Of a stretch of DNA of 64,000 nt, positions 15,723 through 60,305 are shown piece by piece; the first letter of the stretch is position 1; each line of letters opens with the position of its first letter. The DNA is from Gemmatimonadota bacterium. Its GTDB lineage: Bacteria; Gemmatimonadota; Gemmatimonadetes; Longimicrobiales; Gaopeijiaceae. The stretch is taken from assembly GCA_028873815.1 (NCBI GenBank), contig JAPPNN010000003.1, positions 1 to 64,000 of the forward strand, written 5' to 3'. Below the pieces are notes generated by a model. The model made no database searches. It had not been told where the DNA came from and was given only the letters and a program-made list of their open reading frames with translations. The position numbers and the translations under genes were made by a program.

Positions 15723-16805
15723 TCACGAACCCCTCAGACGCGCCACGATCAACCGATTGGGAAGGACGGACGCCGGGTCATCGAAGTAGTAAAGGCCCTC
15801 GTGATCCACGAACAGCAATCTCGGACTCCGGGCAAGCTGCAGCCTCGGTTGCCCGAGCCGGTCCATGATCAGAAGGTCGGCTTCGAAATCGCCGAACCGC
15901 ATGCGGGCAGATTGAACCGCGAACTCTCCTCCGGTCAGAAGAAAGACATCGGCGACCTGGGTGATGTTGCCGATGGCTTGAGGGTTTGCAGGCACGACGC
16001 CCTCAATCGCAGGGACGGGGCCGGTTGGCCGGGGCAGCGGCATCGGCACCTCCGAGAGACGCTCGCCGCCGCGGGTGAACTTGTAGAGTGTGTCCGACAG
16101 TGCCCACGCGGCCCAGATGGTATCGGCTTCAACGACGGCGCTCACGGCCGGAAAGGAAAGACCGGCTGGCCGGGACGCTTCCGGCAGCCCCATTGGCAGG
16201 AACCGCCGTTCAACCCGTTCGGCCTGCGCGTCCCATATGTGAAGGAAACGGGGTTGCCCGACATTATCTCCGCCAGGACCAAGTAGCAGGAGCCGGTCGC
16301 CGCCAAGGTCCTTTACATCCCAGAGGAGTCTCACCGGTACATTCCCCACCAGGTTCTCGAAGGCTCCCTCCGGCGAGAAGAAGGTGATCCGCGAAAGCGA
16401 CGGGTCCGCCACGACGATGCGCCCATCCATGGCCCGTGAGGCCGACACCGGTGTCTCAAACTCACCCGGTCCCTCACCCCGGCGGCCGATGACGGTCCGG
16501 AGCGAACCGTCCCGACCATAGAGTCGGACCTGGACTTCAGGCACATCGATGACGAGCAGCTCGTCAGCACGACCGGCTGCCATGCGCGGAAACACCGTGA
16601 CGACGTCCTCGTTCTCTTCCAGCGTGAGGATGCGCAGGGGCTCGAACGCGGCAAGGAAGGCGGCGGTGTCGACCGAAGGTTCCTGTGAGAGTTGGAGCGC
16701 GGCGGGGCTGGCCTCGTCAGGGCGCGGCGTGGCATCCGGGCTATGGGCGTTGGGGAGAGGGAGGAGCAGGAGGAGGAGGGAGAAGGGGGTGATGAGGGTG
16801 GTCAT
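15723..16805 (-). CDS. Secreted 6-bladed beta-propeller protein
   Basis: 'VIGRRGEGPGEFETPVSASRAMDGRIVVADPSLSRITFFSPEG'. Confidence 0.85.
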   Translation of the reverse strand: MTTLITPFSLLLLLLPLPNAHSPDATPRPDEASPAALQLSQEPSVDTAAFLAAFEPLRILTLEENEDVVTVFPRMAAGRADELLVIDVPEVQVRLYGRDGSLRTVIGRRGEGPGEFETPVSASRAMDGRIVVADPSLSRITFFSPEGAFENLVGNVPVRLLWDVKDLGGDRLLLLGPGGDNVGQPRFLHIWDAQAERVERRFLPMGLPEASRPAGLSFPAVSAVVEADTIWAAWALSDTLYKFTRGGERLSEVPMPLPRPTGPVPAIEGVVPANPQAIGNITQVADVFLLTGGEFAVQSARMRFGDFEADLLIMDRLGQPRLQLARSPRLLFVDHEGLYYFDDPASVLPNRLIVARLRGS

Positions 16806-19326: not shown

Positions 19327-20631
19327 GTGAAACACCGCCTGTCACCTCTCGTGGGTGTTGGCTCGGCGCTGGCCTTGGCCCCGGCCATTTGCCAGGCCCT
19401 GGCTTTCACCCCGCTACTCCCCACCCCGTCCGCCGCGCAGGACCGTCCCCTGACCGTAAACATGACCGAGGTGTACCGCGCGGGCGGCGTGAACGCGCCG
19501 GATTGGGCGCTTTTCGGCCCTGCTGCTGCCTTGCAGGCGAGCTTCGACGGGGCCGGCAACCTGCTCTTGCTGGATGCCTTCAACAAGCGGGTCGTCGTCG
19601 TCGGACCCGATGGCCAGCTCGTGCGCATAGTAGGTCGGGAGGGCGAGGGCCCGGGCGAATTCCAGGAAGTACGAGCCCTCGCGGTGTGGCGCGATGGCCG
19701 CTTCGCGGTGCCCGACACGGAGCATTCGGCGATCCAGGTGTTCAGCCCGGACGGGGAACTCGAGCGGTTCGTCAGGTGGCCCGGCGAGCCCAGAACGCTG
19801 TCCACCGCGCTCCGCCACAGGGAGATCCGGGCCGATCCGCTAGGCGACAGGATCGTCGCTCGCGGCGTCGAGGGCGTGCTGGTCGAGATGATGAGTTTCG
19901 GGAACCGGCTCCAGGGGTATCCGGAAGACGACACGGAGGGCGTCGATGATCGCGCGCTCGAGATGTTGGACCTCTCCGGCGACGTGATCGCGTCCGTGCC
20001 GGTTCTGCAGGGTTGGCGGGCGCCCCGTCCCGAGCCGCCATCATCCACGAGCCTGGACGACTGGCCGAAGATCGTCGCGGCCGTGGAGGACCGGTACTTC
20101 GAGCCGACGTTTCACTGGGACGTGCTGCCCGACGGCACCATCGCCTATTCCGACTCCACAGCGTACGCCGTCAAGCTCGCCTCTCCCGATGGGTCGGTGA
20201 CCGATGTGCTGAGGCGCCTGCTCTCGCCGGAGACGGTGTCGGAACGGATCCGGCAGGGAACGATCGCCTTCCGCCTCCAACGTCTTGAGGAGTCGTTGGC
20301 GAATCCTCCGTCTACAAGCCTGCCTTTCGGGAGGGATCCCGAGCAGAGCCGCCGAACGATTCGGGATCGTGAATTCTACCACGAAGTCCCCGTGGTTCAG
20401 GGCATCAGGGCGACCTGGGACGGTGGGCTGTGGATACAGCGCCGCAGCGAGAATCCGTGGGACGACGAGGGGCCGATCGACGTGTTCGACGCGGACCGGG
20501 AATACGTGGGAACGCTGTCAGCCGGGGAGCCGGCGATGCCGATCGCGTTCGGGCCCGACGGGCTCGTGGCGCACATGGAGAGCGATGAATTCGATGTGCC
20601 GACGCTGGTGGTGAGTCGGGTCGAGCGCTGA
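19327..20631 (+). CDS. Secreted 6-bladed beta-propeller protein
   Basis: 'IVGREGEGPGEFQEVRALAVWRDGRFAVPDTEHSAIQVFSPDGE'; 'MPIAFGPDGLVAHMESDEFDVPTLVVSRV'. Confidence 0.85.
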   Translation: MKHRLSPLVGVGSALALAPAICQALAFTPLLPTPSAAQDRPLTVNMTEVYRAGGVNAPDWALFGPAAALQASFDGAGNLLLLDAFNKRVVVVGPDGQLVRIVGREGEGPGEFQEVRALAVWRDGRFAVPDTEHSAIQVFSPDGELERFVRWPGEPRTLSTALRHREIRADPLGDRIVARGVEGVLVEMMSFGNRLQGYPEDDTEGVDDRALEMLDLSGDVIASVPVLQGWRAPRPEPPSSTSLDDWPKIVAAVEDRYFEPTFHWDVLPDGTIAYSDSTAYAVKLASPDGSVTDVLRRLLSPETVSERIRQGTIAFRLQRLEESLANPPSTSLPFGRDPEQSRRTIRDREFYHEVPVVQGIRATWDGGLWIQRRSENPWDDEGPIDVFDADREYVGTLSAGEPAMPIAFGPDGLVAHMESDEFDVPTLVVSRVER

Positions 20632-23749: not shown

Positions 23750-24586
23750 TCAGATTTCAGGCCGAACCCGTTTGCATTGCACCAAGGCGCCTCGCCATCC
23801 GATCAGACATTCCACTTCCGGGTACCAGCGCGTCATATCGCGAAAGCTGGATATGACCTCCGTGGCAAAGGAACTCACGAACGACTGATACACTTCCGGC
23901 GATGTCGCCTGACCGTCTTCAGGCACCCGGATCAGTCCATCTTCCACCGCCTCCAACACGACCTCGGTCGCCGTGTAGGTCGTTACTCCTTCATTCACCG
24001 AAAGCGCCAGAATCATCCCCGGAAGCCCACCGTAAAGGGCCGGGCCAAACGATACCGGTATGTCCGGCGCGAACCACGCTTCAACCCGGTGGTCTGCAGC
24101 TTCACCAACCGCCCGGATCACTTGGTGTCCCAGATGCTCCCCATGCTGCTCGGTGATACTCCACGCTACCGGAGTGACCTCCGCAGGGACGCGATAGCGT
24201 TCCCCACCAAGCTCCAGCACCTTGACTCCCAAGGACGCTTCCTCCCCGACATAAGCCTGTAAGAAGCGGCTTGGCGTGACCGCGTACCACGCTTCGAGGG
24301 CTCGTCCCAGGGCGTTCAGGTTGGCTCCGGTGGCACGAAACCTGGCGGGAACAACCCCGCGGCCTCTGTTCCACCTACCCCGCACCATCAGCGATCGCGA
24401 AGGAGTGAAGTGGAGCAGGAACGGCGCGCTGCCCCATGCTTCCAGCACTGTGGGTACTTCGGCCAGTTCCCAGGGCAGCTCGACATCCAGCGACACGCGG
24501 CTGGCGTAGGCAATGGTACCGCTCTGCCCGTCCGCGCGGCCGACCGAAACCGCGATCGCGAGTACACCTGCGAACAGTGCCCTCAT
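23750..24586 (-). CDS. GLPGLI family secreted protein
   Basis: 'SFGPALYGGLPGMILALSVNEGVTTYTATEV' signature; 4-bp overlap with upstream gene. Confidence 0.85.
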   Translation of the reverse strand: MRALFAGVLAIAVSVGRADGQSGTIAYASRVSLDVELPWELAEVPTVLEAWGSAPFLLHFTPSRSLMVRGRWNRGRGVVPARFRATGANLNALGRALEAWYAVTPSRFLQAYVGEEASLGVKVLELGGERYRVPAEVTPVAWSITEQHGEHLGHQVIRAVGEAADHRVEAWFAPDIPVSFGPALYGGLPGMILALSVNEGVTTYTATEVVLEAVEDGLIRVPEDGQATSPEVYQSFVSSFATEVISSFRDMTRWYPEVECLIGWRGALVQCKRVRPEI

Positions 24587-25743
24587 CGCACCGTACCCGT
24601 GCACCGATCCGCGTCGATGGTGAATCGTCGCACGACCGTTGTTATACTGGTCGCCCCGTCTGCCCGCAGCCGTCGGTCCAGGACCCACAGAGTGTTTCCC
24701 TGCAGAAACGGCATCGGCACTCCGACATCCGAGGTGGGTACCAGGGTGTCGCCGCAGCCGCGATCACCGTCGAAACGGGACACGGCTGCGTAGAGCTTGG
24801 CACCGGTCATGGTGCCGTCTTCGTCGCGGTCACTCTCCTGGTGAAGCGTGTAGACGTTCCCGGCACTGTCCCGCGACAACTCGCGAACCAGCGACGAGGA
24901 CGTAAAGAAGTCGAAAATCCATGACCGCAAGTCCTGTTGACTATCCGGCTGCTTGCCGCGCATGACTTCGAGAAACTCAGCTTCATCCGGTTCGCCACGC
25001 CGCAGCCCCTTTCCGATCCAGACCGTATCGGTGACCGCACCTTCATGAGCGATCCGAATCACGAAGGGGCTTCCGGTAAACCCCAGCACCACATCACGGT
25101 CCCCCACGTCGAGGAAACCGATTGACAGCGATCCCGCCAAGGCATGTTGCTCTCTGTAAGGTGCAGGCACCGTCCCACGGTTCAGGACCATTGGCGGCGC
25201 TTGCTCCAGGGAACCGGCCGCGTCCACCAGGTCCGCGACGGCGATCACCCCATGGGATGCCGACGAGACCCGATTGTTTCCCGCAAACCAGAGCGAGTCA
25301 CCTGAGACCGCAAAGGACGAGGGTCGGTTGTTGACATCCACCCTCACGCGGCCGTGATGAGCACCCGTCACCGGGTCGAAGAGTTCCATCCTTCCGGTTT
25401 CGTCCAGGAATCCCGCGACCGCTTCTGTGACAAAGCCGACACCGCCCAAATGCAGGAACTCCCCAGGCCCACCTCCCCGCCTCCCCAAGTGCCCGGTCAA
25501 TCGACCGGTCGCGTCGTAGCGCAGGACCGTTTCCGCGAACCCGTCAGAAACCAGCAGTGCACCATCCCGCGCGACGAACAGCGCCAGTGGGTTCCCAATG
25601 TAGTGATCTTCCGTCTCCTCCAGCACGACGCTATCGCGGAGGATCAGATCGGGTCCGGGATTCTGGGCTGCTGCGCCGTTGGCGAATACGACCAGCAGAC
25701 CCAGGAGGATTGGCATCGCGGGCACATGGCGGTGATCATCCAT
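24583..25743 (-). CDS. Secreted 6-bladed beta-propeller protein (C-terminal 'CxGTVR' subfamily)
   Basis: 'HLGRRGGGPGEFLHLG'; C-terminus 'TTVVRRFTIDADRCTGTVR'. Confidence 0.82.
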   Translation of the reverse strand: MDDHRHVPAMPILLGLLVVFANGAAAQNPGPDLILRDSVVLEETEDHYIGNPLALFVARDGALLVSDGFAETVLRYDATGRLTGHLGRRGGGPGEFLHLGGVGFVTEAVAGFLDETGRMELFDPVTGAHHGRVRVDVNNRPSSFAVSGDSLWFAGNNRVSSASHGVIAVADLVDAAGSLEQAPPMVLNRGTVPAPYREQHALAGSLSIGFLDVGDRDVVLGFTGSPFVIRIAHEGAVTDTVWIGKGLRRGEPDEAEFLEVMRGKQPDSQQDLRSWIFDFFTSSSLVRELSRDSAGNVYTLHQESDRDEDGTMTGAKLYAAVSRFDGDRGCGDTLVPTSDVGVPMPFLQGNTLWVLDRRLRADGATSITTVVRRFTIDADRCTGTVR

Positions 25744-25990
25744 TATTCTGGCAGTCCATCCAAATCGGCTGTCCCCCAGCAATCATTCTGACGTCGGACT
25801 GACATGAGCCGGCTGAGAAAGAGAGTCTGCTCAGCCACGCCGACAATTGAATCGGTCACCACCCCGTCGGCAACGAGATATGCCCGTGGCGCGGGAATTG
25901 TGTGTGCTTCGGAGATGACGCCACTTAGTCGAACGCGCCGTAGACTCAGGGCCTCGACCTGCTTGACACTTGGCGGCGTTCGCTTGAAAA

Positions 25991-26612: not shown

Positions 26613-27866
26613 GTGACCGACGTCCTACGCAGACCACTGGCGACACCGATACTCGCCGTTTCGTTTGTGGTGCTCTGCGCCGCTTGCCTGGGCGACGGAT
26701 CGGACCCGGCGGCCACGGATCACGCGGCGGCCTTGGACCTGTTCGCCCCATGGCCCGGTGACGAGTCGTTTCGGCTCGCCGCTGAACCAAGCCTGGTGGT
26801 GGGATCGGACGAGTCTCTCCCGCTGGGCAGGGTCTCCGGGGCGGTCTTCTTCGGCGACGGCATCGCCATCGCGTCGGTCCAGTTTCACGAAGTCCTGATC
26901 CTGGATGCTGCGGGCCGACTGCTCTCGCGGCACGGCAGGCGTGGAGAAGGTCCGGGTGAGTACAAGTTTCTGGCCGGGATCGCTCGCCACGCGGACGGAC
27001 TGATCACTTTGGACGCAAACCACTTCCGCGTAACTCTGCTCGACGCCTCCGGGGGGTACGTCGGCGAGACCAAGCTCAGACCGCGTGGTCGTGAAAGGAT
27101 CGAGATCGTTGGAGCCTTCGGAAACAGCGTGCTGCTCGAATCCTGGAAGCAGGGATTCCCGGGCGACGGGTCCGTCGGGCCGATGGAGATCCGCCTGCCG
27201 GTGACATATGAGATCGTCCGTCTTGCCGACGGGGAGATCGTCTTCGAGGGCACCCGTCCAGGTGAAGAGAAGTGGGCGGAGAGGGAGGTAACTGACGACG
27301 GGCAAAGGCACGGCGGGCTACCCGTGATCTTCGGACGGACTGCCGTCGCGGCCGTCACTGACAATTATGCCTATCTGGCGACGACCGACTCCATGACGAT
27401 CATGCGCTACGACCAGGCCGGGACCACTGGGGAAGTCGCATTCGAGCAGCCCCAGGAGCGCGCGGAGGCGGGGTGGGAGCGCTTTGTCAGAGACACCGCA
27501 CGGGCGAGCATCGAGAGTATAGAGCCGGGCCAGATCTTCCTTGGCGGAAGGAACTTCATGATGTCCATCAGGGAGTTCCGCCTCGGCCTGATCGATGACC
27601 TGCCGGCCCGCCCCACCCTTCCCCCCTTTTCCGCGATGAAGGGAGGTGCCGACGGTCTTCTGTGGATCCGCGAGTACCCTGACCCGCTTCAGGACGAGGT
27701 GGTCTGGGTCGGTTTCAGCGAGGCGTGGGAACGAAAGAAGCGACTCGCAATGCCGGCGAGGCTGTCGGTTCTGAATGTTCTGGATATCTCGGAAGACCGG
27801 GTACTCGTGCGGGCAAAGGATGCACATGACGAAACCCTGATCGAGGTCTACCCGATCGAGCGGTGA
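26613..27866 (+). CDS. Secreted 6-bladed beta-propeller protein
   Basis: 'LLSRHGRRGEGPGEYKFLAGIARHADGLITLDANHFRVTLLDASGG'. Confidence 0.82.
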   Translation: MTDVLRRPLATPILAVSFVVLCAACLGDGSDPAATDHAAALDLFAPWPGDESFRLAAEPSLVVGSDESLPLGRVSGAVFFGDGIAIASVQFHEVLILDAAGRLLSRHGRRGEGPGEYKFLAGIARHADGLITLDANHFRVTLLDASGGYVGETKLRPRGRERIEIVGAFGNSVLLESWKQGFPGDGSVGPMEIRLPVTYEIVRLADGEIVFEGTRPGEEKWAEREVTDDGQRHGGLPVIFGRTAVAAVTDNYAYLATTDSMTIMRYDQAGTTGEVAFEQPQERAEAGWERFVRDTARASIESIEPGQIFLGGRNFMMSIREFRLGLIDDLPARPTLPPFSAMKGGADGLLWIREYPDPLQDEVVWVGFSEAWERKKRLAMPARLSVLNVLDISEDRVLVRAKDAHDETLIEVYPIER

Positions 27867-28055
27867 AGACGCAGGTGACTGACCCGGAGCAGATTCCAGT
27901 CTGACTTTCCGGGTCACTCTCCACTTGATCGAATCGCGCGTATTCTTCGTAGGACCCCGGCCGCGAGGCAATCCCTGTCATCTGACTCCGTGCCACTACC
28001 GTCGCGGAATGTGGCGGCTAGATATGGCCGCTCTCCCGGCACTTCGCCCCGAAAT

Positions 28056-28101
28056 GTCGTGGATTGACAGTGTTTTATGGGCTCTTCTGACGTTCAGTAA
28101 G
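28056..28101 (+). repeat. About 46-bp element, copy 1 (upstream of transposase remnant)
   Basis: GTCGTGGATTGACAGTGTTTTATGGGCTCTTCTGACGTTCAGTAAG; similar to 31781-31826. Confidence 0.5.
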
Positions 28102-28173
28102 ACGGTACCGGAGAAGCGCACCTTGAGCATCGGATCCTGTGTGAGCCGGACGTCTACCAAGCGCGACCTGCTA

Positions 28174-28866
28174 ATGGCGAGATTCCCTGACGTCTATGAA
28201 CAGTGGACAAGCCGTCAGATCAAGCGGGCACATGCGGCGAGCCTACTGGGGGTGTCCGAGCGGACATTCCGGCGATACGTGGCGAGGTATAGGGAAGTGG
28301 GCTTGAAGGCGCTTGAAGATCGGCGGGCCAAGAGTCCCCAAGGGGCACCTGACGAGGAAGTCGCCGCCTTAGTAACACTCTACGCTGAAGGCTACCGCGG
28401 ATGTCCGGTACGCGGGTTCTACAGAGCGTACACAGACTCCCATGAGGGTACACGGTCATACACCTGGGTCAAAGATCGTCTGCACGAGTCGGGCCTCGTC
28501 ACCCCGCGCCGTTCCACACGGTCAACACCAGAAAGCCGCGGTCGGCGACCTGCTGAGGGGCGACTGCTTCACCAGGCTAGTTGCGTCTATCAGTGGTTAC
28601 CGAAGCGAACCTGGGAGTTGGTGGTTTTGGTCGATGACGCGAGTGATCGTGTTCACTCCGGGCTCTTCGTGGAATGCGAGACGATCTGGTGTCGATTCCG
28701 CACCATCCACGAAACCATCGTAGCTAACGGGCTGTTTGACGCGATTCACGTAGATCCGGCATTGCGGAATAGCGATGACTGTCGGGAAACGGGCCGATTC
28801 CCTTACGCCCAACGCTCGAGGCGGACACGGCGGAGCTTCTGGGGGTGCACGAAAACCGTGAGGTAG
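28174..28866 (+). pseudogene. Transposase remnant (ISNCY-like, HTH plus degraded DDE core)
   Basis: 'QWTSRQIKRAHAASLLGVSERTFRRYVARYREVGLKALEDRR', 'SPQGAPDEEVAALVTLY', 'YTWVKDRLHESGLV', 'LVVLVDDASDRVHSGLFVE'; missing region continues in another frame ('PHGQHQKAAVGDLL'). Confidence 0.7.
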
Positions 28867-28959: not shown

Positions 28960-29766
28960 TCAGGCCCGACCACCGGCGACTCGGGCTGGCCCGACGATCC
29001 CACTCAGGACAACCTCCTCGACGCGATCCATGTCGTCGCTCGTCATGTCGCGCGACAGGGTACTCCCCAGGACGCGACGCAGCAGTCGGTGGCAGTTGGC
29101 GTCGTTCGAGAACCCCATGGCGAGGGCCACAGAGCTCAGGGGCCGTTTGCTCCAATGGAGCAGCCGCGCGACCGCGAAGACGCGAGCCAGCGCCAACAGA
29201 TCCTTGGGAAAGGCGAGCCCCAGACGGCGACATCGGCGCTGCAGGCTGCGTTCCGTCACCGCAAAGTCGGCGGCCAGGTCCGCGACCAGGCATGGTTCGA
29301 CTGCACGTCGAAAGATGAGACGGAGAATGGGAGAGGCGGCAGCGGGTGTCCGTGCTTCGGCGCGGGCGAGCAGTCGATGGACTCGTGCAGCGTCGATGTT
29401 CTGGAGGATGGCGAGCTCGAGGGCACGGATGTCACCGATGTCACATTGCTTCACGCGGGTTACGGCAGCCGCCATTTCGTCCCCTGCCGACTGCATCTGG
29501 GCGTCCGAACACGGGTATTCGATCAAAAGAGGGGCGTATTGAGGGACGCCCGACCTCTCGTCTCGGCCCGGATTGGACGGAGCGCTGATCTCGTTGAGAT
29601 CTGGGTCTACGATCGCCGGTGAGCCTGGGTGTGCCGCTACGAGAGTCCCGAGCTCCTCCCAGTTCGACGCAAGGACCACCGGTCCGATCATCGCGGATAG
29701 ATCGCCCGACCTGACGATGAGTCGGATGCGTTGCCGAAAGTGAGGACTAGCCTGCAACGCGAGCAA
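28960..29766 (-). CDS. AraC-type helix-turn-helix regulator
   Basis: 'DFAVTERSLQRRCRRLGLAFPKDLLALARVFAVARLLHWSKRPLSSVALAMGFSNDANCHRLLRRVLGSTLS'. Confidence 0.75.
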   Translation of the reverse strand: MLALQASPHFRQRIRLIVRSGDLSAMIGPVVLASNWEELGTLVAAHPGSPAIVDPDLNEISAPSNPGRDERSGVPQYAPLLIEYPCSDAQMQSAGDEMAAAVTRVKQCDIGDIRALELAILQNIDAARVHRLLARAEARTPAAASPILRLIFRRAVEPCLVADLAADFAVTERSLQRRCRRLGLAFPKDLLALARVFAVARLLHWSKRPLSSVALAMGFSNDANCHRLLRRVLGSTLSRDMTSDDMDRVEEVVLSGIVGPARVAGGRA

Positions 29767-29797: not shown

Positions 29798-30991
29798 CTA
29801 TCGAACCATGCGGAGTTTCCCGTCGGCCGTCGTCCGAATCACGACTGATCCCAGCAAGCCCGCGAGCCCTGCCAATACCAGATTGGGCGGCACGCCGCCC
29901 AGCATCCCCACCATCAGCAACACTGCCGCGAGACAGGCCCAGTTCGTGCAGAACTGACCCACGGTGGCAAGGCGGCCGATACGGTCACGTGCCCGCTGTT
30001 TGGCGGTCGGCTTGGTCGCTTCATTCGGCGGTGCTTCGAGCAACCTGTTGACGATCTCGTCCATGCGTTGGGGTGAGAGATTGGCACTTGCACCGACAAC
30101 GGTGCGGATGCCCTTGGCCAGGTGAATCATCTCCAGCTCGGCCTGGGTGGCGGCGCCCGCTCTGGTGGGAGGCTCGTCGGGGCCGCGGGCCCGGGGATTG
30201 ACAGCGCGGTCGACGCGGTCGATGTGGCGCGGGTCGTAGGAATCTCCCTCGCTTCGACGTCGTTGAAAGGCACTCGATAGACCCAGATCGTCGGCTAGCC
30301 GCCAAGCAAGCCCTGCGATCAGAATGGTGGGGAGCAGCAGAGCACCCGGCAGTATCCATGCGGGTGCAACGCCACTATGCAGGATCAGGTTGGCTGTCAG
30401 CAGGAGCGATAGGCAGAAAGACAGGAAAAGGGTGAGGCAGGACAGCCACGTAGTCGTAGTTCGCCTCCCGGGATTCCACCACTCCGTGACCCGGCTCAGG
30501 AGTCCGCCCGCGACACCTGAAAGGACGGTGAAGATGGCGATCGTGCTTGGTACCCAAAACCGAGCGCTTTCGACTATCTGCGGGGCCGCACGCATGCCGG
30601 GGGCGGCGGCGTCCAGAGCCAAGAAGGCCGAGCTCACCAGCGGTCCGAGACCATACAGCGCGTAGGCACCCAGCGCGAGAAAGACCAAGTGCGTGATCTG
30701 ACTGCGACTGATTCTGTGTTCGTGCTCTCCGGTAACCGGGCCGCCAGCGGCCGCCGCGAAAGTTGCGGGCGCGACCAGGAATGACAACCCTACGGTTGTG
30801 GGTCCCAATACCATTCCTAGCCGGCCGGCGATCCGGATATCCTCGGCCAAGCCGAAGAAGGTTCCTGAGGCGTAGAGAACGTACAGGCCGCTCAGCCCGA
30901 GAAACCAACGGACCACTGAGCCAGCGAACCCCACGCGTACAGCCTTGCGCGATAGCGCTTTACGTCCTGTGAGCATCGCTAGAAGTCCCAT
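29798..30991 (-). CDS. Multi-pass membrane protein of unknown function
   Basis: 397-aa ORF with repeated hydrophobic segments and a cytosolic charged linker. Confidence 0.65.
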   Translation of the reverse strand: MGLLAMLTGRKALSRKAVRVGFAGSVVRWFLGLSGLYVLYASGTFFGLAEDIRIAGRLGMVLGPTTVGLSFLVAPATFAAAAGGPVTGEHEHRISRSQITHLVFLALGAYALYGLGPLVSSAFLALDAAAPGMRAAPQIVESARFWVPSTIAIFTVLSGVAGGLLSRVTEWWNPGRRTTTTWLSCLTLFLSFCLSLLLTANLILHSGVAPAWILPGALLLPTILIAGLAWRLADDLGLSSAFQRRRSEGDSYDPRHIDRVDRAVNPRARGPDEPPTRAGAATQAELEMIHLAKGIRTVVGASANLSPQRMDEIVNRLLEAPPNEATKPTAKQRARDRIGRLATVGQFCTNWACLAAVLLMVGMLGGVPPNLVLAGLAGLLGSVVIRTTADGKLRMVR

Positions 30992-31219
30992 CGTTCATCA
31001 ATGGTAACTTGCGGTCGTCATGACTTCCAGTTCGGTCCGGTACATGGCGTCTTCATGGCCTATCTTTAGTGCCGGTTGGCTCCCACTGCACTGGGGAGAC
31101 GAGATTAGAACGAGGCGGCATCGAAGCCCACAAGGCCCATAGCGAGAAGGCATTGATCGATCACTGATCCAGTCGACATCAAGCGGCTTCACAACCGCGA
31201 CCCGGAACTCCTGCGTGAG

Positions 31220-31729
31220 TTGGTCGAGGAACTCAGCCCTCGCATCTGGGTCGCGATTCGCCCGTACGCGCGAGACGATGAACAGGCCAAGGACCTCCTC
31301 CAGGACAGTTGGCTGACGATCTTGGAGCGGCTGGATCAGTTCAGGTGGAACGGTTCGTTCGCTCGCTGGGCCATTACCCTCAGCAAGAACCTCTGTGTCG
31401 ACTCTCTACGGGCGGAAGAGCGGAACAAAGCCGTGGAAGTACCGCTGGCCAGCACCATGGAGTTGAGTGCGGAGGGGCACGATCCCCTGCACGAGGTGCT
31501 CAGGGATCATGCCCGGCCGATCGTGTACGCTGCCTTGAGTCGCCTTACCGACCGCGAACGTGACACGCTGACGGTGTGGGCGCTCATGGGTCGTAACCTG
31601 AAGGAAACCGCGGAAGTAGTCGGAGTGAGCCAATCTGCAGCGCGGTCGATCCTCAACCGGGCGATGTCAAGGCTGCGAAGGATGCCGCAGATGAGGGCGT
31701 TGCTGATGGATTGGATGGAGGAGAACTGA
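31220..31729 (+). CDS. ECF-type sigma-70 family RNA polymerase sigma factor
   Basis: 'DDEQAKDLLQDSWLTILERLDQFRWNGSFARWAITLSKNLCVDSLR' (region 2) and 'LTDRERDTLTVWALMGRNLKETAEVVGVSQSAARSILNRAMSRLR' (region 4); coding similarity extends upstream of the TTG start. Confidence 0.88.
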   Translation: MVEELSPRIWVAIRPYARDDEQAKDLLQDSWLTILERLDQFRWNGSFARWAITLSKNLCVDSLRAEERNKAVEVPLASTMELSAEGHDPLHEVLRDHARPIVYAALSRLTDRERDTLTVWALMGRNLKETAEVVGVSQSAARSILNRAMSRLRRMPQMRALLMDWMEEN

Positions 31730-31780
31730 CAGACGATCCGGAGCGGGAGTCCGGCTACACGATATGATCCGGCCACGGGT

Positions 31781-31826
31781 GTCGCGAATTGACAGTATTC
31801 TGACGAGCTCTCCAGCGTTTGGTAAG
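31781..31826 (+). repeat. About 46-bp element, copy 2 (upstream of thioredoxin-like gene)
   Basis: GTCGCGAATTGACAGTATTCTGACGAGCTCTCCAGCGTTTGGTAAG. Confidence 0.5.
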
Positions 31827-31872
31827 GGTGTAGCAGCCAGTCGGCCGCACCATCCAGGGAGGGCGCCCCATC

Positions 31873-32421
31873 GTGAAAGCGACGCAGTGGTTGAACGCAT
31901 TGCTGTTCTTACTCGTGGCCGGGATCGGCAGCCAGATCGTCTTGGCGATCAGTCGCGCTCAGCAGGCGGCACCGCCGCCCGCGCCCGCGACTGGGCTGGT
32001 CGTTGGGGACACCTTGCCCGCGTTGACGGGGAGCCTTGAGGGAAACGTCCTGACGACTATTCCACTCGCCAGGGATGCTGGCTTCGCTACGGTCTTGTAC
32101 GTCTTCCACCCCGATTGCGTGCATTGTCACGCCGTGGCGCCCGAATGGGCGGAGCATTTCTCGGCTGACCACAACGACTGGCCGGTGGTGCAGAGAATCG
32201 CTGTGACCAACGAGGCGGTCGTCCCGGCCGTGGCCTATGCTGAACACTTCGGTTGGAATGTGGATGTCTTGAGCGTGAAGGATCTGACACCTGCCGACCG
32301 GGAGTTTTCTCTTTTTTCCAGGACCCCTTGGGTGTTTGTGTTCGATTCGGCTGGCGTACTTCGATTCGATGGGCACGGCCGTCGGTTGGAACAGATGATA
32401 CAAGCGATTGAGGCACTCTGA
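31873..32421 (+). CDS. Membrane-anchored thioredoxin-like (CxxC) protein
   Basis: N-terminal TM; 'FATVLYVFHPDCVHCHAVAPEWAEHF' CxxC; 'TPWVFVFDSAGVLRFDGHG'. Confidence 0.82.
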   Translation: MKATQWLNALLFLLVAGIGSQIVLAISRAQQAAPPPAPATGLVVGDTLPALTGSLEGNVLTTIPLARDAGFATVLYVFHPDCVHCHAVAPEWAEHFSADHNDWPVVQRIAVTNEAVVPAVAYAEHFGWNVDVLSVKDLTPADREFSLFSRTPWVFVFDSAGVLRFDGHGRRLEQMIQAIEAL

Positions 32422-32462
32422 TGACCGTTAGCCACCCCTAAGCAACAGACTGGAGGAAACGA

Positions 32463-32684
32463 ATGAAGAAGAAACTCCTGTGGGTCCTGCTCGCCGTCGC
32501 GGCGAACATCGCCCTGCTGCCACTGGCACTTGCCACTCCGAAAAGTGCCGCCGCTGCGTCCAGTTCAGGCTTCCTTTTCCACTGTTGCAAGCAAACCGTG
32601 GCGGGAGACGCGTACTGCTGCGGTTACTGCTGCATGCTCAGATTCGACTGCTTGGGCGATCGCCACTGCGGTGAAAGGTTCTGA
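32463..32684 (+). CDS. Small exported cysteine-rich peptide (8 Cys)
   Basis: Shine-Dalgarno-like 'ggagg' upstream; signal peptide MKKKLLWVLLAVAANIALLPLALA; tail 'FHCCKQTVAGDAYCCGYCCMLRFDCLGDRHCGERF'. Confidence 0.75.
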   Translation: MKKKLLWVLLAVAANIALLPLALATPKSAAAASSSGFLFHCCKQTVAGDAYCCGYCCMLRFDCLGDRHCGERF

Positions 32685-32694
32685 GGCGAACTGC

Positions 32695-32952
32695 ATGGCT
32701 GTCATGCCTGACACAACGCGGCCGGTGACCGAGACCGAGGCCCTGGAACTACTCCGGTCCATCGACGAGCTGGTGATGGTGGAACGCCCACCACACCTCG
32801 TGATCGGCTCGGCACATCACACCCTCTACAGGGCGCTCGAGGACATCAAGGTGATTGCGAGTGCGACGATCGCCTGGCACCGGACGCATGCGGACGGCGT
32901 TTGTCACGAATGCACGGGGAGAAACGAGCCCTGGTACTGCTTCCACGTCTGA
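32695..32952 (+). CDS. Small hypothetical protein, 85 aa
   Basis: Same strand, 10 bp downstream of the Cys-rich ORF; C-terminal 'CHECTGRNEPWYCFHV'. Confidence 0.6.
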   Translation: MAVMPDTTRPVTETEALELLRSIDELVMVERPPHLVIGSAHHTLYRALEDIKVIASATIAWHRTHADGVCHECTGRNEPWYCFHV

Positions 32953-51824: not shown

Positions 51825-53051
51825 CTACCGGCCCACCAACTCGTACACCACCACGCTCTCCACATCCATCTCGTCCACCTGCATGCCGAGGATGAGCCCG
51901 CCGGCCACGTCGAGAATGCGGAACCGGGGCGGAGTCTCCACCGTGCCCAACCACTCCCCAACCGGAGCGATCACCGCGTAGGGCGGCACGCTGTGGCGCT
52001 CGCCATCCGGCTTGTAGGAGGGCAGCCACACCCTGCCCTCGACGTCGGTGAACGGATCGGCGAAGAGCGGCATGGGACGGCCGATGCTGGCACGATAGAT
52101 GGCCATGATTCGCCGGGTGCTCTCCGTGATTCGGTCCTCGGGCAGGTTCGGGCTGTGCTTGCGGACCTCCAACCGGTGCTGGGCCTCGATGGGCTGCATC
52201 CACGCCTCGGTCAGAAGAGCCGGGTCAGCTTGCCAGCGGACAATCTGCGTTGCGGTGCCGTCGGCGAGGCGCCAGATGACTTCCGCCCTGTCCGATCTGG
52301 TCTGGACGAAGTGCCCGGCGGTGACTGTCACGTCACCGTAGGCCGGGATCGGTTCCCACTCGAGCCCCGGCGGTATGCGCGGCATGAAGTCGTACGACGC
52401 GACGGTGTCGAGGGCTCCGGTCTCCATGTCGAATCGGGCCATGTGGCCGGGGCGCCACGCCTCTTCGTCGCTGAATGAAGCGTAGGACGTGGCCAGCAGC
52501 AGCTCTCCGGGTGACCCGATTCCCTTGACGTCCAGGCTGGGAGAGCGCGGAAGGGCCGTGATGTCGGCTACCGAATCCCTGACGAAGAGGGTCGCGCGGG
52601 CGAGATTGGGGTCTGCGATGAGGATGCTGTCCTGTGCCAGTACGAATATGGCGTCGACGTAGGTGACTTCCCCCGGTCCTTCTCCTTCGGCGGCCAGGAC
52701 CGCGTGCGTCGTGCCGTCGGGGCTGAACGCGACCAGTTCGACGTTCCACTGGTCGTACACGACCGCGCTGCCGTCCGGCAGGAGGCGTCCGGCGCTGGCC
52801 TCCTGAAAGGAATAGTCACCGGGGGTTGCGCCGTGGCGGTAGCGAGGTTCGGCGGCGAGCTGGAAGGGAGCGGGGGCGGTTGGGGTGTGGTCGTAGGTGA
52901 CGATGCGGACGCCCGCGCTGTCGGCGATGTGGGGTGGGGTGACGGCGACGGGCGGGGTGTCGGGTGCGCAGGCGACGAGCGGGGCCAGGAGGGTGATCGG
53001 CGCCACGAGCGCGGGGACCAGGCGAGGTCGAGTGGGCAAGGTCATTCCCAT
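51825..53051 (-). CDS. Secreted 6-bladed beta-propeller protein ('GEWLGxVETPPRFRILDVAGG' subfamily)
   Basis: C-terminal 'APVGEWLGTVETPPRFRILDVAGGLILGMQVDEMDVESVVVYELVGR'; 'VLAAEGEGPGEVTYVDAIFVL'. Confidence 0.85.
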   Translation of the reverse strand: MGMTLPTRPRLVPALVAPITLLAPLVACAPDTPPVAVTPPHIADSAGVRIVTYDHTPTAPAPFQLAAEPRYRHGATPGDYSFQEASAGRLLPDGSAVVYDQWNVELVAFSPDGTTHAVLAAEGEGPGEVTYVDAIFVLAQDSILIADPNLARATLFVRDSVADITALPRSPSLDVKGIGSPGELLLATSYASFSDEEAWRPGHMARFDMETGALDTVASYDFMPRIPPGLEWEPIPAYGDVTVTAGHFVQTRSDRAEVIWRLADGTATQIVRWQADPALLTEAWMQPIEAQHRLEVRKHSPNLPEDRITESTRRIMAIYRASIGRPMPLFADPFTDVEGRVWLPSYKPDGERHSVPPYAVIAPVGEWLGTVETPPRFRILDVAGGLILGMQVDEMDVESVVVYELVGR

Positions 53052-53075
53052 GGGAAGCGGTGCGCGGGTGCGAAT

Positions 53076-53112
53076 GTAAACAGCAGTATACATAATGGAA
53101 ACCGAAGTTGTC
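53076..53112 (+). repeat. Composite paired-palindrome element, copy E
   Basis: GTAAACAGCAGTATAC-ATAAT-GGAAACCGAAGTTGTC. Confidence 0.7.
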
Positions 53113-53159
53113 TTTTCGTGTCCCAACCATTGAAGGTCGTACGGAGGTGTCGAACGCCA

Positions 53160-53954
53160 ATGAAGGTGCTCACATGGAACGTCAATAAAGCGGGCGAGTC
53201 CCGGCGCGGGCTGTGGGAAATGCTTCGGCGCGAAGACGCGGATATCGTCCTGCTTCAGGAAGTTACCGGAATCCCCGGGTGTATCCGGGACCATTACCAA
53301 TGCCATTGGGTATCCCCACGGTTCTTTGAAGACTACAACGCACCGTTTTCGACCGCCGTGCTTTCGAAGGGGCTGATCGACGCCACGCCGTACCTGGAAT
53401 CGGAGTTGGGATGGGTCAACAGGATCCAAACGGAGCGCTACGGATGGATTGTCGGATGTAAGACGCGACTTGCCTCTGGAGAGCAATTCCGGGTCGTTTT
53501 GGTTTACTCGCCCGCCTTTCCAATTCCGCAAGGGCAATGGGCCGAGGCGGATGTGACGGGCATCAAGCTGACGAATAACCGTGACCTCTGGTTTACCGAG
53601 ATCCTGTGGGCACAGCTCCGCAATGCAGACATCTCCGACGATACGAACTGGATTGTCGCCGGTGATTTCAACAGTTCGGTACTGTTCGACGAACCGAAAG
53701 ACACGGGCAACCGAGAGATCATCGAACGGCTGAATGCACTCGGGTTGACCGATTGTCTGAGCCACTTTCATCGCGGCCCTGTACCGACCTTTCAGCACAC
53801 GTCAAAGTCAGTTGATCATCAGCTCGACTACTGCTACGTGAACACGCCGATGCTTGACCGCCTCAGGACGGCTCGAGTGCCGAGTCACAAGGATATCTTC
53901 TACACAACGCCGAGACTGAGCGACCACCTTCCGATTGTGTGCGAATTCGACTAA
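53160..53954 (+). CDS. Endonuclease/exonuclease/phosphatase family protein
   Basis: 'MKVLTWNVNKAGESRRGLWEMLRREDADIVLLQEV', 'WIVAGDFNSSVLFDEP', 'HQLDYCYVN', 'RLSDHLPIVCEF'. Confidence 0.9.
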   Translation: MKVLTWNVNKAGESRRGLWEMLRREDADIVLLQEVTGIPGCIRDHYQCHWVSPRFFEDYNAPFSTAVLSKGLIDATPYLESELGWVNRIQTERYGWIVGCKTRLASGEQFRVVLVYSPAFPIPQGQWAEADVTGIKLTNNRDLWFTEILWAQLRNADISDDTNWIVAGDFNSSVLFDEPKDTGNREIIERLNALGLTDCLSHFHRGPVPTFQHTSKSVDHQLDYCYVNTPMLDRLRTARVPSHKDIFYTTPRLSDHLPIVCEFD

Positions 53955-53973: not shown

Positions 53974-55323
53974 CTACCGCCCCACCACCCGCTTCACCAC
54001 CACCCTGTTCAGCCCGACTTCGTCCCTCTCCACGAACGCCAGCAGTCCCCCCGGACCGAACGCGGTCGGCATGACGGTGTCACTCGGATAACTCCCCAGG
54101 TAGCGGCCGTCGGCGGTCAGCACGTCCATCGAGCCATCGCTGAGCAGATCCTCGCCCCGTCGGCGCACCCAGATCTCGCCCTCCCAGGTCGTACGCATGT
54201 CGACGACGACCGGGATTTCGTCCGCGGACGGCAACGCCTCGAGATAGGCGCGCCTCGTTCTCTTCAAGCCCTCCAACATGATGTCGCGCGGAAGACCGGC
54301 GACGGCCTCGCCAGTCCGCCCATCCACAACCCGCTGTGGCTGCGCGCTCATGGATGCCTCGATGGCCACGTATTCCACCACCTGGCGCTCGATTTCGGCC
54401 TCCAGTAGCCGGTCCGTCACCGGTTGCGGGAATAGCGGACGACGCAGGATCCGGGAGACCGAACCGTCCGGCCCGGTGAGCTTGATCGCGTAGGCCGTGG
54501 AGTCGGAAAACGCTATGCCGCCACCGGGGAGCGGACCCACGAACAGTCCGGGATCGAAGGTGCGCGGCGGCGGTGTCTGGTCGCCGGTCGTGATCTCGTG
54601 TCCGTTCACACGAAACGTGATGATGCCGGCGGACGGAGGGGCCCACGCGTAAGTGATGGTCTCCCTGACCACGGCATCGCGGTCGAGCCCGAGGCGAACG
54701 ATCGGACGTTTGCCGGGGGGATCTTCCTCGCCGGGCGCCCGCATCCCCTCGATGATCGTCAGCCCGCCCGACACGACAACCGCGTCCCGCCCAGCGCCGT
54801 CGGCATAGATCCGGCCCCGAACGTTGAGCAGGTCCTCTCCTACCCGGACGTTGCGGTCGAGCGTGCCGTCTCTGCCAAAGACCTGGAAGGAGCGATGCCC
54901 GGCGATGTCGCCCACGACTGCGCGTCCATCCGCCATGGCCGTCAGTTGATCGGGAAAGCTGAACTCGCCCGGACCCGCCCCCTGCCGCCCGATGAATCTC
55001 ACCAGCTCGCCATCCGGGTCGACGACGAAGACCCTGTACGCGTGAAGGTCGAGAAGGTAGAGGTTGCCCGCGCCGTCGAAAGCCGCTTCAAAGATTGCCC
55101 CGAACTGCTGCCATTCGGGCCCGTCGAACGAGCCGAGCCGGAACACCTCCTCGAAGTCGGCCCCGAGCGGAATGTCGTCGGCCGGGAGTTCGATGATGTC
55201 CGGGGCGGTTGCGGGGAGCGCGGACAGGAGAAAGAGGGAACAGCAGGCAGCTGCCACCTTGTGTCCGAATCGAAGGCCGAAGGCAGGTGCCTTTCCGGCG
55301 GGAACAGACCGGGTCAGCTTCAC
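53974..55323 (-). CDS. Secreted 6-bladed beta-propeller protein
   Basis: 'FIGRQGAGPGEFSFPDQLTAMADGRAVVGDIAGHRSFQVFGRDG'; 'MPTAFGPGGLLAFVERDEVGLNRVVVKRVVGR'. Confidence 0.85.
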   Translation of the reverse strand: MKLTRSVPAGKAPAFGLRFGHKVAAACCSLFLLSALPATAPDIIELPADDIPLGADFEEVFRLGSFDGPEWQQFGAIFEAAFDGAGNLYLLDLHAYRVFVVDPDGELVRFIGRQGAGPGEFSFPDQLTAMADGRAVVGDIAGHRSFQVFGRDGTLDRNVRVGEDLLNVRGRIYADGAGRDAVVVSGGLTIIEGMRAPGEEDPPGKRPIVRLGLDRDAVVRETITYAWAPPSAGIITFRVNGHEITTGDQTPPPRTFDPGLFVGPLPGGGIAFSDSTAYAIKLTGPDGSVSRILRRPLFPQPVTDRLLEAEIERQVVEYVAIEASMSAQPQRVVDGRTGEAVAGLPRDIMLEGLKRTRRAYLEALPSADEIPVVVDMRTTWEGEIWVRRRGEDLLSDGSMDVLTADGRYLGSYPSDTVMPTAFGPGGLLAFVERDEVGLNRVVVKRVVGR

Positions 55324-57810: not shown

Positions 57811-59085
57811 TCACATCGAGCCACTACGAGGGACCTGGGTGTCAGGGTTCAGGCCAAAGGTCCACCCAACCACCTCAAACACCACTACACTCTCCACGTC
57901 CATCTCATCCCTGAGCACCCCCAGCACTAGCCCTCCCGCCACATCGAGGATTCGGAACCTGGGCGGAGTCTCAACCTGTCCCAGCCACTCCCCGTCCGGG
58001 GAAATGACTGTGTACGGCGACCCCTCTTCCGGATAGGTCATCCGGTAGGACGGCAGCCATATGTTTCCGACGGCGTCGGCGAAGGGGATACCGAAAAGCG
58101 GCAAAGGCCGGCCGAGCATGGCGCGATACCACGACATGCCTTCCTGAACCAGCTCCTCCAGCCGGGCATCGGACACTTGGTAGTTTATTCGGCCCATCAT
58201 TCGGTCATAGGCCTCGACGGGTTCCAGGAGTTCCTCGGTCAGCAGCGTGCGCTCGGCCCGCCAGCGCATGATCTGGGTTACCGTGCCGTCCGGCAGACGC
58301 CAGGTGACCTCGGGCCTGTCGGACCGCGTGTAGACGAACTGCCCGGCGGCGACCGTGACCTCGCCAAGAGTCCTGATCGGATTCGCCGGCAGCCCCGGCG
58401 GGTTCCCCGGCCAGTTGTCGTACGACGCGACCGTGTCGAGGGCGCCGGTTTCAGTATCGAACAGGGTCATGTGCCCAGGGAGCCACACCTCCTCCTCTAC
58501 GGTCCGGTAAACGGCGGGGTACCGGTTTTTGAGCATCAGTTCACCCGATGAACCGATCCCTGCCACACCGAGGTGGGCTGCGCGAGGGAGGCTCGCGATG
58601 CGCGCTACCGAATCCCGGACGAAGAGAGTGAGGCGAGACAGACGATTGTCGGGCACAAGGACGCTGTCCTGGCCCAGGACGAACATCGAGTAGGGGTAGA
58701 TAAGTTCGCCCGGCCCCTCTCCCTGCCTGGCGAGCACCTCGTGTGTCTTGCCGTCCGGACCCAGGACGACCAATTCGCTGTTCTCCCGATCAGCAACGAC
58801 CGCGCCTCCATCCGGGAAGAGCCGACCGACGTTGACCAACTGAAAGGTGTAGTCGCCCGGGTTGGCGCCGTGGCGGTAGCGGGGTTCCGCTCCGAGGTGA
58901 AAGGGTGCGGTGATGGCTGGCGTGCCATCGTACGTGACAGTCCGCACGCCGGCGCTGTCCATGATTTGCACCGGGACATCGCCCGGTGTCGCGGATTCGC
59001 CCGTGCAGGCGAAGAGCGAGCCCAAGAGTGCGATTGCCGCCAGGAGCGTGGGGATTACCTGGGCGCGCCTGCGTAAGCCCTTCAC
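57811..59085 (-). CDS. Secreted 6-bladed beta-propeller protein ('GEWLGQVETPPRFRILDVAGG' subfamily)
   Basis: 'VLARQGEGPGELIYPYSMFVLGQDSVLVPDNRLSRLTLFVRDS'; tandem with 59082-60305. Confidence 0.88.
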   Translation of the reverse strand: MKGLRRRAQVIPTLLAAIALLGSLFACTGESATPGDVPVQIMDSAGVRTVTYDGTPAITAPFHLGAEPRYRHGANPGDYTFQLVNVGRLFPDGGAVVADRENSELVVLGPDGKTHEVLARQGEGPGELIYPYSMFVLGQDSVLVPDNRLSRLTLFVRDSVARIASLPRAAHLGVAGIGSSGELMLKNRYPAVYRTVEEEVWLPGHMTLFDTETGALDTVASYDNWPGNPPGLPANPIRTLGEVTVAAGQFVYTRSDRPEVTWRLPDGTVTQIMRWRAERTLLTEELLEPVEAYDRMMGRINYQVSDARLEELVQEGMSWYRAMLGRPLPLFGIPFADAVGNIWLPSYRMTYPEEGSPYTVISPDGEWLGQVETPPRFRILDVAGGLVLGVLRDEMDVESVVVFEVVGWTFGLNPDTQVPRSGSM

Positions 59086-60305
59086 CCGCGCGACCCCCCA
59101 ACCACCTCATAAACCACGACATTTTGCACGTCCATTTCATCCCTGAGCACCCCCAGCACGAGCCCACCCGTCACATCGAGGATTCGGAACCTGGGCGGAG
59201 TCTCAACCTGTCCCAGCCACTCGCCGTCCGGGGAAATGACCGTGTACGGCGACCCCTCTTCCGGGTAGGCGGGCCGATAGGAGGGCAGCCACACGTTTCC
59301 GTCGGCGTCGGCGAAGGGAGTTCCGAAGAGCGGTATCGGCTGTCCGATCATGGCGCGATACCGTGCCATGTCTGCCTGAATGACCTCCTCGAGCCGGGCC
59401 TCGGACATTCCGTACATCATCTTGCCCAGCATTCGGTTATAGGCTTCGCCGTGCTCCAGGAGTTCCCCGGTCAGCAGGTTGGGTCCTGGGCGCCAGCGCA
59501 CGATCTGCTCTACCGTGCCGTCCGGCAGGCGCCAACTGATCTCGGGCCTGTCGGTCCTGGTTTGGACGAACCGCCCCGCGGCGACCGTGACCTCGCCGCT
59601 GGGCAGGATGATCGGGCGCTCCTGCCCCGACCGCTGTCGCGGGACGTGGTCGTACGACGCGACCGTGTCGAGGGCGCCGGTTTCGGTATCGAACAGCGTC
59701 ATGTGTCCGGAGAGCCACTCCTCCTCTATATCGATCCACAAACGGCTGGGGAATCGGTTCCAGAGCAGCAGCTCACCGGATGAACCGATCCCGGCCACAC
59801 CGAAGTGGGCTGCCCGAGGCAGGCTCACGATGCTCGCGACGGAATCCCCGACAAAGAGCGTGAGGCGAGACTGACGACTGTCCGGCACAAGAACGCTGTC
59901 CTGGCCGAGAACCAACACCGCGTAGGGGAAGGTGACTTCGCCCGGTCCCTCTCCACGGGTGGCGAGCACCTCGTACGTCGCCCCGTCCGCACTCAGGACG
60001 ACCACCTCGCCATCGAGATCGGCAACGACCGCGCTTCCATCCGGGAAGAGCCTGCCGGCGTTGGCGAACTGGAAGATGTAGTCGCCCGGACCGCCGCCGT
60101 GCCGGTAGCGGGGTTCGCCGGCCAGCCGGAAAGGTGCGACGTTGGCCGGCACACCCGCGTAGGTGACGACCCGCACGCCCGCGCTGTCCGCGGTCTGGAC
60201 CGGAACATCGCCCGGTGTCGGGGTATCACCGCCGCAGGCCGCGCCGAGCGCGACACCGCCCGCCACTGCAACCGCGCCGATCACCCACCCTGTAATACTT
60301 CTCAC
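59082..60305 (-). CDS. Secreted 6-bladed beta-propeller protein ('GEWLGQVETPPRFRILDVTGG' subfamily)
   Basis: 'VLATRGEGPGEVTFPYAVLVLGQDSVLVPDSRQSRLTLFVGDS'; 4-bp overlap with next gene. Confidence 0.88.
   Translation of the reverse strand: MRSITGWVIGAVAVAGGVALGAACGGDTPTPGDVPVQTADSAGVRVVTYAGVPANVAPFRLAGEPRYRHGGGPGDYIFQFANAGRLFPDGSAVVADLDGEVVVLSADGATYEVLATRGEGPGEVTFPYAVLVLGQDSVLVPDSRQSRLTLFVGDSVASIVSLPRAAHFGVAGIGSSGELLLWNRFPSRLWIDIEEEWLSGHMTLFDTETGALDTVASYDHVPRQRSGQERPIILPSGEVTVAAGRFVQTRTDRPEISWRLPDGTVEQIVRWRPGPNLLTGELLEHGEAYNRMLGKMMYGMSEARLEEVIQADMARYRAMIGQPIPLFGTPFADADGNVWLPSYRPAYPEEGSPYTVISPDGEWLGQVETPPRFRILDVTGGLVLGVLRDEMDVQNVVVYEVVGGSRG

Follow-up and report, generated by a model that had tools for sequence, protein, structure and literature searches.

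Methylamine dehydrogenase (MADH) systems comprise a thioredoxin-like (Trx-like) protein, MauD, together with MauE, a Cys-rich light chain, MauA, and a propeller heavy chain, MauB. ERp44-type one-Cys proteins bind and retain their clients, and CxxS motifs are found in client-retaining proteins. Candidate RiPP families that contain MauE/MauD and have precursors of at least 8 Cys were predicted in Streptomyces on the basis of MauE (PMC7794033). That a redox partner may accompany a Cys-rich precursor is, as a general idea, already known. MauD with the MADH light chain and the Streptomyces candidates are the closest precedents of the locus described here; neither is described with an LptF/LptG-like protein and a sigma core.

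The locus lies in the window (the whole 64,000-nucleotide stretch that was analysed), in which the first-pass annotation had proposed an undescribed module of four ORFs. The coordinates, strands and gaps of these ORFs (sigma, Trx-like, 73-aa and 85-aa) were all found to be correct on re-check of the sequence. The features are sorted by position (+ and -, strand).

27925-28866, +, transposase-derived (ISNCY-like) protein, shortened in the window (cluster comparison, ISNCY alignment)
28960-29766, -, AraC-type (HTH_18) regulator, recurrent in type-A loci (Pfam, 3.6e-10; cluster c6, 20 loci)
29798-30991, -, type-A multi-span membrane protein, MEM4 (cluster c4 in 23 loci; profile-profile match to MEM3)
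31157-31729, +, ECF-type sigma factor, conserved open frame from about 31160 (Pfam, NCBIfam, upstream conservation)
31220-31729, +, ECF sigma ORF as annotated, TTG start
31789-31822, +, tentative type-A promoter ahead of the Trx-like gene (TTGACAGTATTCTGACGAGCTCTCCAGCGTTTGG), a loose match to TGACCCC-N-GGCATTA of relatives
31873-32421, +, membrane-anchored Trx-like protein (FHPDCVHC, with CVHC; cis-Pro in TPW; near-invariant Gln21 in the anchor helix)
32452-32456, +, Shine-Dalgarno GGAGG of the peptide gene (sequence, start-site scan)
32463-32684, +, 73-aa exported peptide gene (family A1, profile searches, model, dN/dS)
32583-32669, +, 8-Cys core of the peptide, residues 41-69
32695-32952, +, 85-aa ORF, a neighbour judged to be outside the module

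The GGAGG lies 7-11 bp before the peptide ORF, and the gap between the Trx-like and peptide genes is 41 bp. No family of Pfam or NCBIfam was reached by the peptide, the Trx-like protein or the 85-aa protein of the window. The proposed gene set is kept for the sigma, Trx-like and peptide genes. The 85-aa ORF, taken at first for a small partner, was rejected because of few neighbouring homologues (beside two close relatives only, in one of them about 2.1 kb off the peptide gene) and weak constraint (dN/dS, 0.53-0.68). The LptF/G-like membrane protein, the AraC-type regulator, the anti-sigma, the propeller lipoprotein and the transposase-derived protein had been overlooked.

Two types of loci were distinguished. 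Type A, to which the window belongs, comprises genes for the sigma factor, the Trx-like protein, the peptide, MEM4 and the AraC-type regulator. A 6-bladed-propeller-like lipoprotein gene usually lies between the Trx-like and peptide genes of this type and is absent in the window; its place is taken in L036, L039, L040 and L041 by a transposase-derived gene that runs up to the Trx-like start. Type B comprises genes for the peptide, a membrane protein (MEM3), the sigma factor and an anti-sigma, the Trx-like gene being placed upstream, downstream or divergently. These four genes lie head to tail with 4-bp overlaps in one type-B locus (L045). No anti-sigma was found in type-A loci, the window included. 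The same parts recur outside the genus, and a locus from another family (L131) carries the peptide, Trx-like and propeller genes.

The profile of the propeller (A6) matches NHL-repeat chains. The window is otherwise full of propeller-like genes with a GEGPGE-like motif (2061-3323, 15723-16805, 19327-20631, 24583-25782, 26613-27866, 51825-53798, 53974-55323 and 57811-60305); the one that was tested gave a weak DUF5128 match. A giant protein of about 1,450 aa with a zinc carboxypeptidase M14 domain adjoins the type-A module in about 10 loci (L026:10861-15255 and syntenic loci).

The window peptide has a helical hydrophobic leader (residues 2-22), then CC-x9-CC-x2-CC-x5-C-x5-C. All 8 Cys and Asn15 of the leader are invariant in the 43 aligned peptides (family A1), and the lengths of the Cys loops differ by at most one residue. 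Homologues were gathered with a filter on the first six Cys, so the unselected evidence of conservation is given by the last two Cys and Asn15. Identity to the window peptide is mostly 22-50%, two close relatives reaching 90% and 73%, and the dN/dS of the gene (0.16-0.37 versus two relatives) indicates purifying selection. Homologues were found throughout the genus by a single-sequence search of relatives, and scanning of contigs yielded a single 90% relative, which lies in a Gemmatimonadetes MAG from a series that is presumably sponge-derived. Of 395 genomes of the phylum searched by profile, 32 contain the peptide, nearly all of them in the genus, with a patchy distribution in the family and one convincing occurrence in another family. 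Up to 7 copies are found per genome; the window's own genome has a second one (G000:C64:69051-69245). No match was found among PDB sequences. With a pLDDT of 68, the AF2 peptide model is too weak to establish a fold or disulfide pairing. NVEALA-type peptides of Bacteroidota were considered and rejected (none of the 43 peptides matched in Pfam). Judged from these alignments, the peptide is the founder of an unrecognised family, conserved far beyond chance.

The association of the peptide and Trx-like genes, proposed from one locus, is borne out. Among 23 genomes of the genus, a peptide gene is present within 3.5 kb at 51 of 54 Trx-like places and a Trx-like gene at 51 of 57 peptide places, and fragments account for several of the exceptions. 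The same pairing, sampled across the family in 116 genomes, is found for 41 of 42 (Trx-like) and 41 of 47 (peptide). Distances between Trx-like proteins follow those between peptides (r = 0.86; 0/2000 permutations), which shows joint inheritance, not contact. Two loci of one genome (G114; L132/L133) keep the peptide, sigma, MEM4 and AraC genes and lack the Trx-like gene, and the Trx-like family has no match anywhere in this genome; the Trx partner is therefore not always needed. Related genomes do hold homologues with conserved Cys, with the association kept, and the module stands. Literature searches gave no description of the module or of its gene combination. Since the peptide, Trx-like and membrane families belong to no described family at cut-off and the combination is unreported, the module is judged new; as far as comparison of sequences goes, it is a conserved gene module without earlier description, as the first-pass annotation had it.

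The profile of the Trx-like family (A2) matches thioredoxin-like chains in the PDB. Cys82 and cis-Pro152 are present in 42/42 members and Gln21 of the anchor helix in 41/42; the dN/dS is 0.13-0.27 (versus two relatives). The second Cys position of CxxC is occupied by Cys in 14 members, Ser in 22 and Thr in 6 (n = 42), so the CVHC of the window is a minority form. The protein had been read as a CxxC oxidoreductase. The window copy keeps the second Cys of a dithiol oxidoreductase; for the family the reading is not supported, this position being Ser or Thr in 28/42. Its loss in two thirds of the members counts against ordinary oxidase chemistry, and a Trx fold with one Cys suggests capture by mixed disulfide, not oxidase turnover. 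The invariant Asn of the peptide leader and the near-invariant Gln of the anchor, both in hydrophobic helices, suggest a pairing of the two helices. Like TlpA/ResA-like and PDI-like folds, the protein has a Trx fold with the first active-site Cys and the cis-Pro, and the CxxS members of its family recall client-retaining proteins; unlike these and ERp44-type proteins, it reaches no Pfam family, has a buried Gln in its anchor and has a fixed peptide neighbour.

A maturation of MauD/MADH type, evoked at first, does not apply in the strict sense. In both systems a small exported protein rich in Cys adjoins a Trx-like protein with a membrane anchor, and propeller and membrane proteins often accompany the two. 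Unlike in MADH maturation, the peptide is much smaller and without a conserved Trp for TTQ (the Cys core of the window's peptide has none), most Trx-like partners are one-Cys, the membrane partner is LptF/G-like, an ECF sigma and an anti-sigma are present and no Mau family is matched. No A1 member matches the MADH light-chain family in Pfam at E<=1, and no MADH chain, the heavy chain included, is matched by the propeller profile A6 at E<=0.01. As in the Streptomyces candidates, a redox partner gene that is not in a mau cluster adjoins a precursor of at least 8 Cys; compared by description, the module differs from them in its phylum and in its LptF/G-like protein and sigma/anti-sigma core. No YcaO, LanM or radical SAM enzyme was found among the recurring clusters examined, of which representative proteins alone were run through Pfam.

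The model of MEM3 (pLDDT 87) contains no strands. Its best 17 matches in the PDB are LptF/LptG chains of LPS-export complexes (two with generic titles), with probabilities of 0.97-1.00, TM up to 0.62 and Foldseek E from 5e-3; the match to Pfam LptF_LptG is weak and below cut-off (0.016). MEM3 is thus predicted to share the transmembrane fold of LptF/LptG permeases. Unlike these, it has no periplasmic beta-jellyroll in the model, and no LptB-like ATPase was found among the recurring clusters examined of its cassettes. For the MEM4 of the window the assignment is indirect, through a profile-profile match to MEM3 (202 columns, E 9.1e-5, probability 59%); MEM4 is probably a distant relative of the LptF/LptG-like MEM3. 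Matches to the MEM4 family lie within 5.5 kb of a peptide gene in 26 cases out of 28.

MEM3 is fused in frame to an anti-sigma domain with HxxxCxxC in two genomes (L138:8237-9340, L071:8165-9457); L138 is the second locus of the window's own genome. This zinc motif is present in 17/20 anti-sigma candidates. As in pairs of ECF sigma and zinc-type anti-sigma factors, type-B loci carry both proteins and an ECF-type promoter before the cassette; unlike in such pairs, the module pair is linked to an LptF/G-like protein, in some cases by fusion, and has a Cys-rich peptide gene ahead. A recognised full peptide is missing near 13 of the 44 MEM3 genes. Most of these 13 adjoin sigma and anti-sigma genes; three of them lie behind a TTGCAC-type promoter motif and two have peptide remnants. 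The core therefore consists of the permease-like protein, the sigma and the anti-sigma, and the pair of peptide and Trx-like protein looks like a unit joined to it. The same copies weaken a role of MEM3 as dedicated peptide exporter.

The window sigma has sigma-70 regions 2 and 4 only, as do ECF factors (Pfam Sigma70_r2, 2e-11, and r4, 2.3e-11; NCBIfam sigma70-ECF, 2.7e-23), and its gene has a dN/dS of 0.18-0.27 (versus two relatives). Conservation of the protein runs upstream of the TTG, where SITDPVDIxRLHNRDPELL is common to two relatives, so the true start is nearer 31160. In 31144-31220 the sigma frame is conserved up to an in-frame stop, and GAGAAGG (31144-31150) precedes an ATC at 31160; the start codon is possibly non-standard. 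Inclusion of the ECF sigma in the set, as first proposed, is supported: ECF sigma genes recur across module loci and, in type B, a shared ECF-type promoter precedes both the peptide and the Trx-like genes. Its motif, TTGCAC-N17-TGTC, is found before 22/43 type-B peptide/Trx-like genes, typically 55-85 bp ahead of the start codon. A stricter 27-mer form has 47 exact sites versus 1 for the reversed control (23 genomes), about half in module loci. The motif as strictly module-specific was rejected, about half of the exact sites lying elsewhere and the looser form being unspecific in the window's own genome. Sites outside the module precede genes for exported Cys-containing proteins, small cytosolic proteins, ECF/sigma-like proteins, response regulators and rhomboids. 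The second locus of the window's genome has a near match to the TTGCAC promoter (TTGCACGTTTTTGCCCTGAAAACCGTT). The type-A motif, TGACCCC-N-GGCATTA, precedes the first module gene in about 10 loci. We infer that the module's own sigma reads the TTGCAC and type-A promoters.

TTGCAC-N17-TGTC is also found before small exported Cys-proteins that, by eye, are unrelated to the peptide (L055 -6803, L063 -6828, L058 -6825, L059 -7122, L045 -11306, L063 -12580); a wider Cys-rich secretome may be co-regulated through this promoter. In L161 and L166 (G007, G021), the gene behind the motif appears to encode a rhomboid intramembrane protease. Rhomboids prefer helices that contain Asn or similar residues, and an invariant Asn is present in the peptide leader.

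The transposase-derived proteins linked to the module align end to end with ISNCY transposases. The catalytic residues of five module copies were compared with those of two plasmid references: the first Asp region of the DDE triad is kept and the second Asp and the Glu are lost in 5/5. Copies near or overlapping module genes are the following.

L036:3906-5093, ISNCY-derived protein
L039:5463-6710, ISNCY-derived protein
L041:6035-7324, ISNCY-derived protein
L022:3227-4450, ISNCY-derived protein
L049:2180-3325, ISNCY-derived protein
window 27925-28866, ISNCY-derived protein

In some sister loci this gene and the Trx-like gene share 4 bp, and the ORF is intact in several type-A loci. A DNA-binding protein fits better than a mobile element, and these proteins are apparently domesticated.

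The explanation preferred here, given about an even chance, is an ECF-controlled envelope cassette for a disulfide-rich exported peptide and its dedicated membrane-anchored Trx-like thiol partner. The prepeptide would be translocated via its hydrophobic leader. The Trx-like protein would trap peptide thiols in a mixed disulfide formed by its single invariant Cys, and would steer the formation of four disulfides; two buried residues, Asn in the leader and Gln in the Trx anchor, may aid the docking. In loci of the sister type, the LptF/LptG-like protein, forming the core with the sigma and anti-sigma, would inform the sigma factor of the envelope's state. Promoter support for the cassette comes from type-B loci; the window is of type A, and its own tentative motif is matched loosely. 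A fuller version is considered unlikely: pairing of the leader Asn with the Trx Gln in the membrane, folding of a four-disulfide peptide by a one-Cys Trx protein, and an LptF/G-like protein without lipid-handling domain acting as anti-sigma receptor that couples peptide output to envelope state.

The tie of the permease-like protein to the anti-sigma makes a signalling role of the peptide a serious rival, possible though doubtful. The Cys-rich peptide, perhaps membrane-anchored, would serve the ECF system as sensor or ligand and, through its redox or bound state, would act on the LptF/G-like protein, which would free the sigma from the anti-sigma; the Trx-like protein would reset the system. 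The head-to-tail overlaps of L045, the permease-like/anti-sigma fusions and the zinc motif of the anti-sigma agree with this, and the invariant leader Asn suggests a helix that is retained and makes contacts. Many leaders, however, look signal-peptidase-cleavable (judged by eye), type-A loci are without anti-sigma, and the permease-sigma-anti-sigma cassettes without recognised full peptide (13/44) make the core independent of the peptide.

A secreted bioactive four-disulfide miniprotein, directed against competitors or towards a sponge host and folded and controlled by the other parts of the cassette, is quite improbable. It would account for a small disulfide-rich export product, for the multiple copies and for the patchy spread with one clear case in another family, but the core residues are conserved, not diversified, and no dedicated exporter or immunity gene was recognised. 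Even less credit is given to a metal or cofactor carrier (resembling a metallothionein or a dehydrogenase light chain) that is partnered by the propeller lipoprotein. Such a carrier would agree with 8 Cys within 29 residues, with the frequent position of the propeller gene between the Trx-like and peptide genes and with the match of 1/43 peptides to the quinohemoprotein dehydrogenase gamma model, which at E 0.047 is short of the cut-off and at chance level for 43 queries. The core has no conserved His or Trp, however, no MADH/QHNDH subunit family is matched, the propeller profile corresponds to NHL repeats and not to the MADH heavy chain, and a Sec-type leader would place free Cys in an oxidising compartment.

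Under the preferred reading, that of an envelope cassette, the module represents a family of bacterial disulfide-rich peptides that lacks annotation and has a dedicated Trx-like partner, mostly of the one-Cys form. It raises the folding of very Cys-dense small peptides by a route other than general Dsb. It also ties an LptF/G-like fold to ECF sigma control, and raises the question whether LptF/G-like proteins can transduce signals. Within this lineage, amplification of the cassette reaches seven-fold per genome, and the cassette thus probably matters for the lineage's way of life. Its repeated presence in a group of sponge-associated bacteria points to an envelope system built on disulfide-rich peptides.
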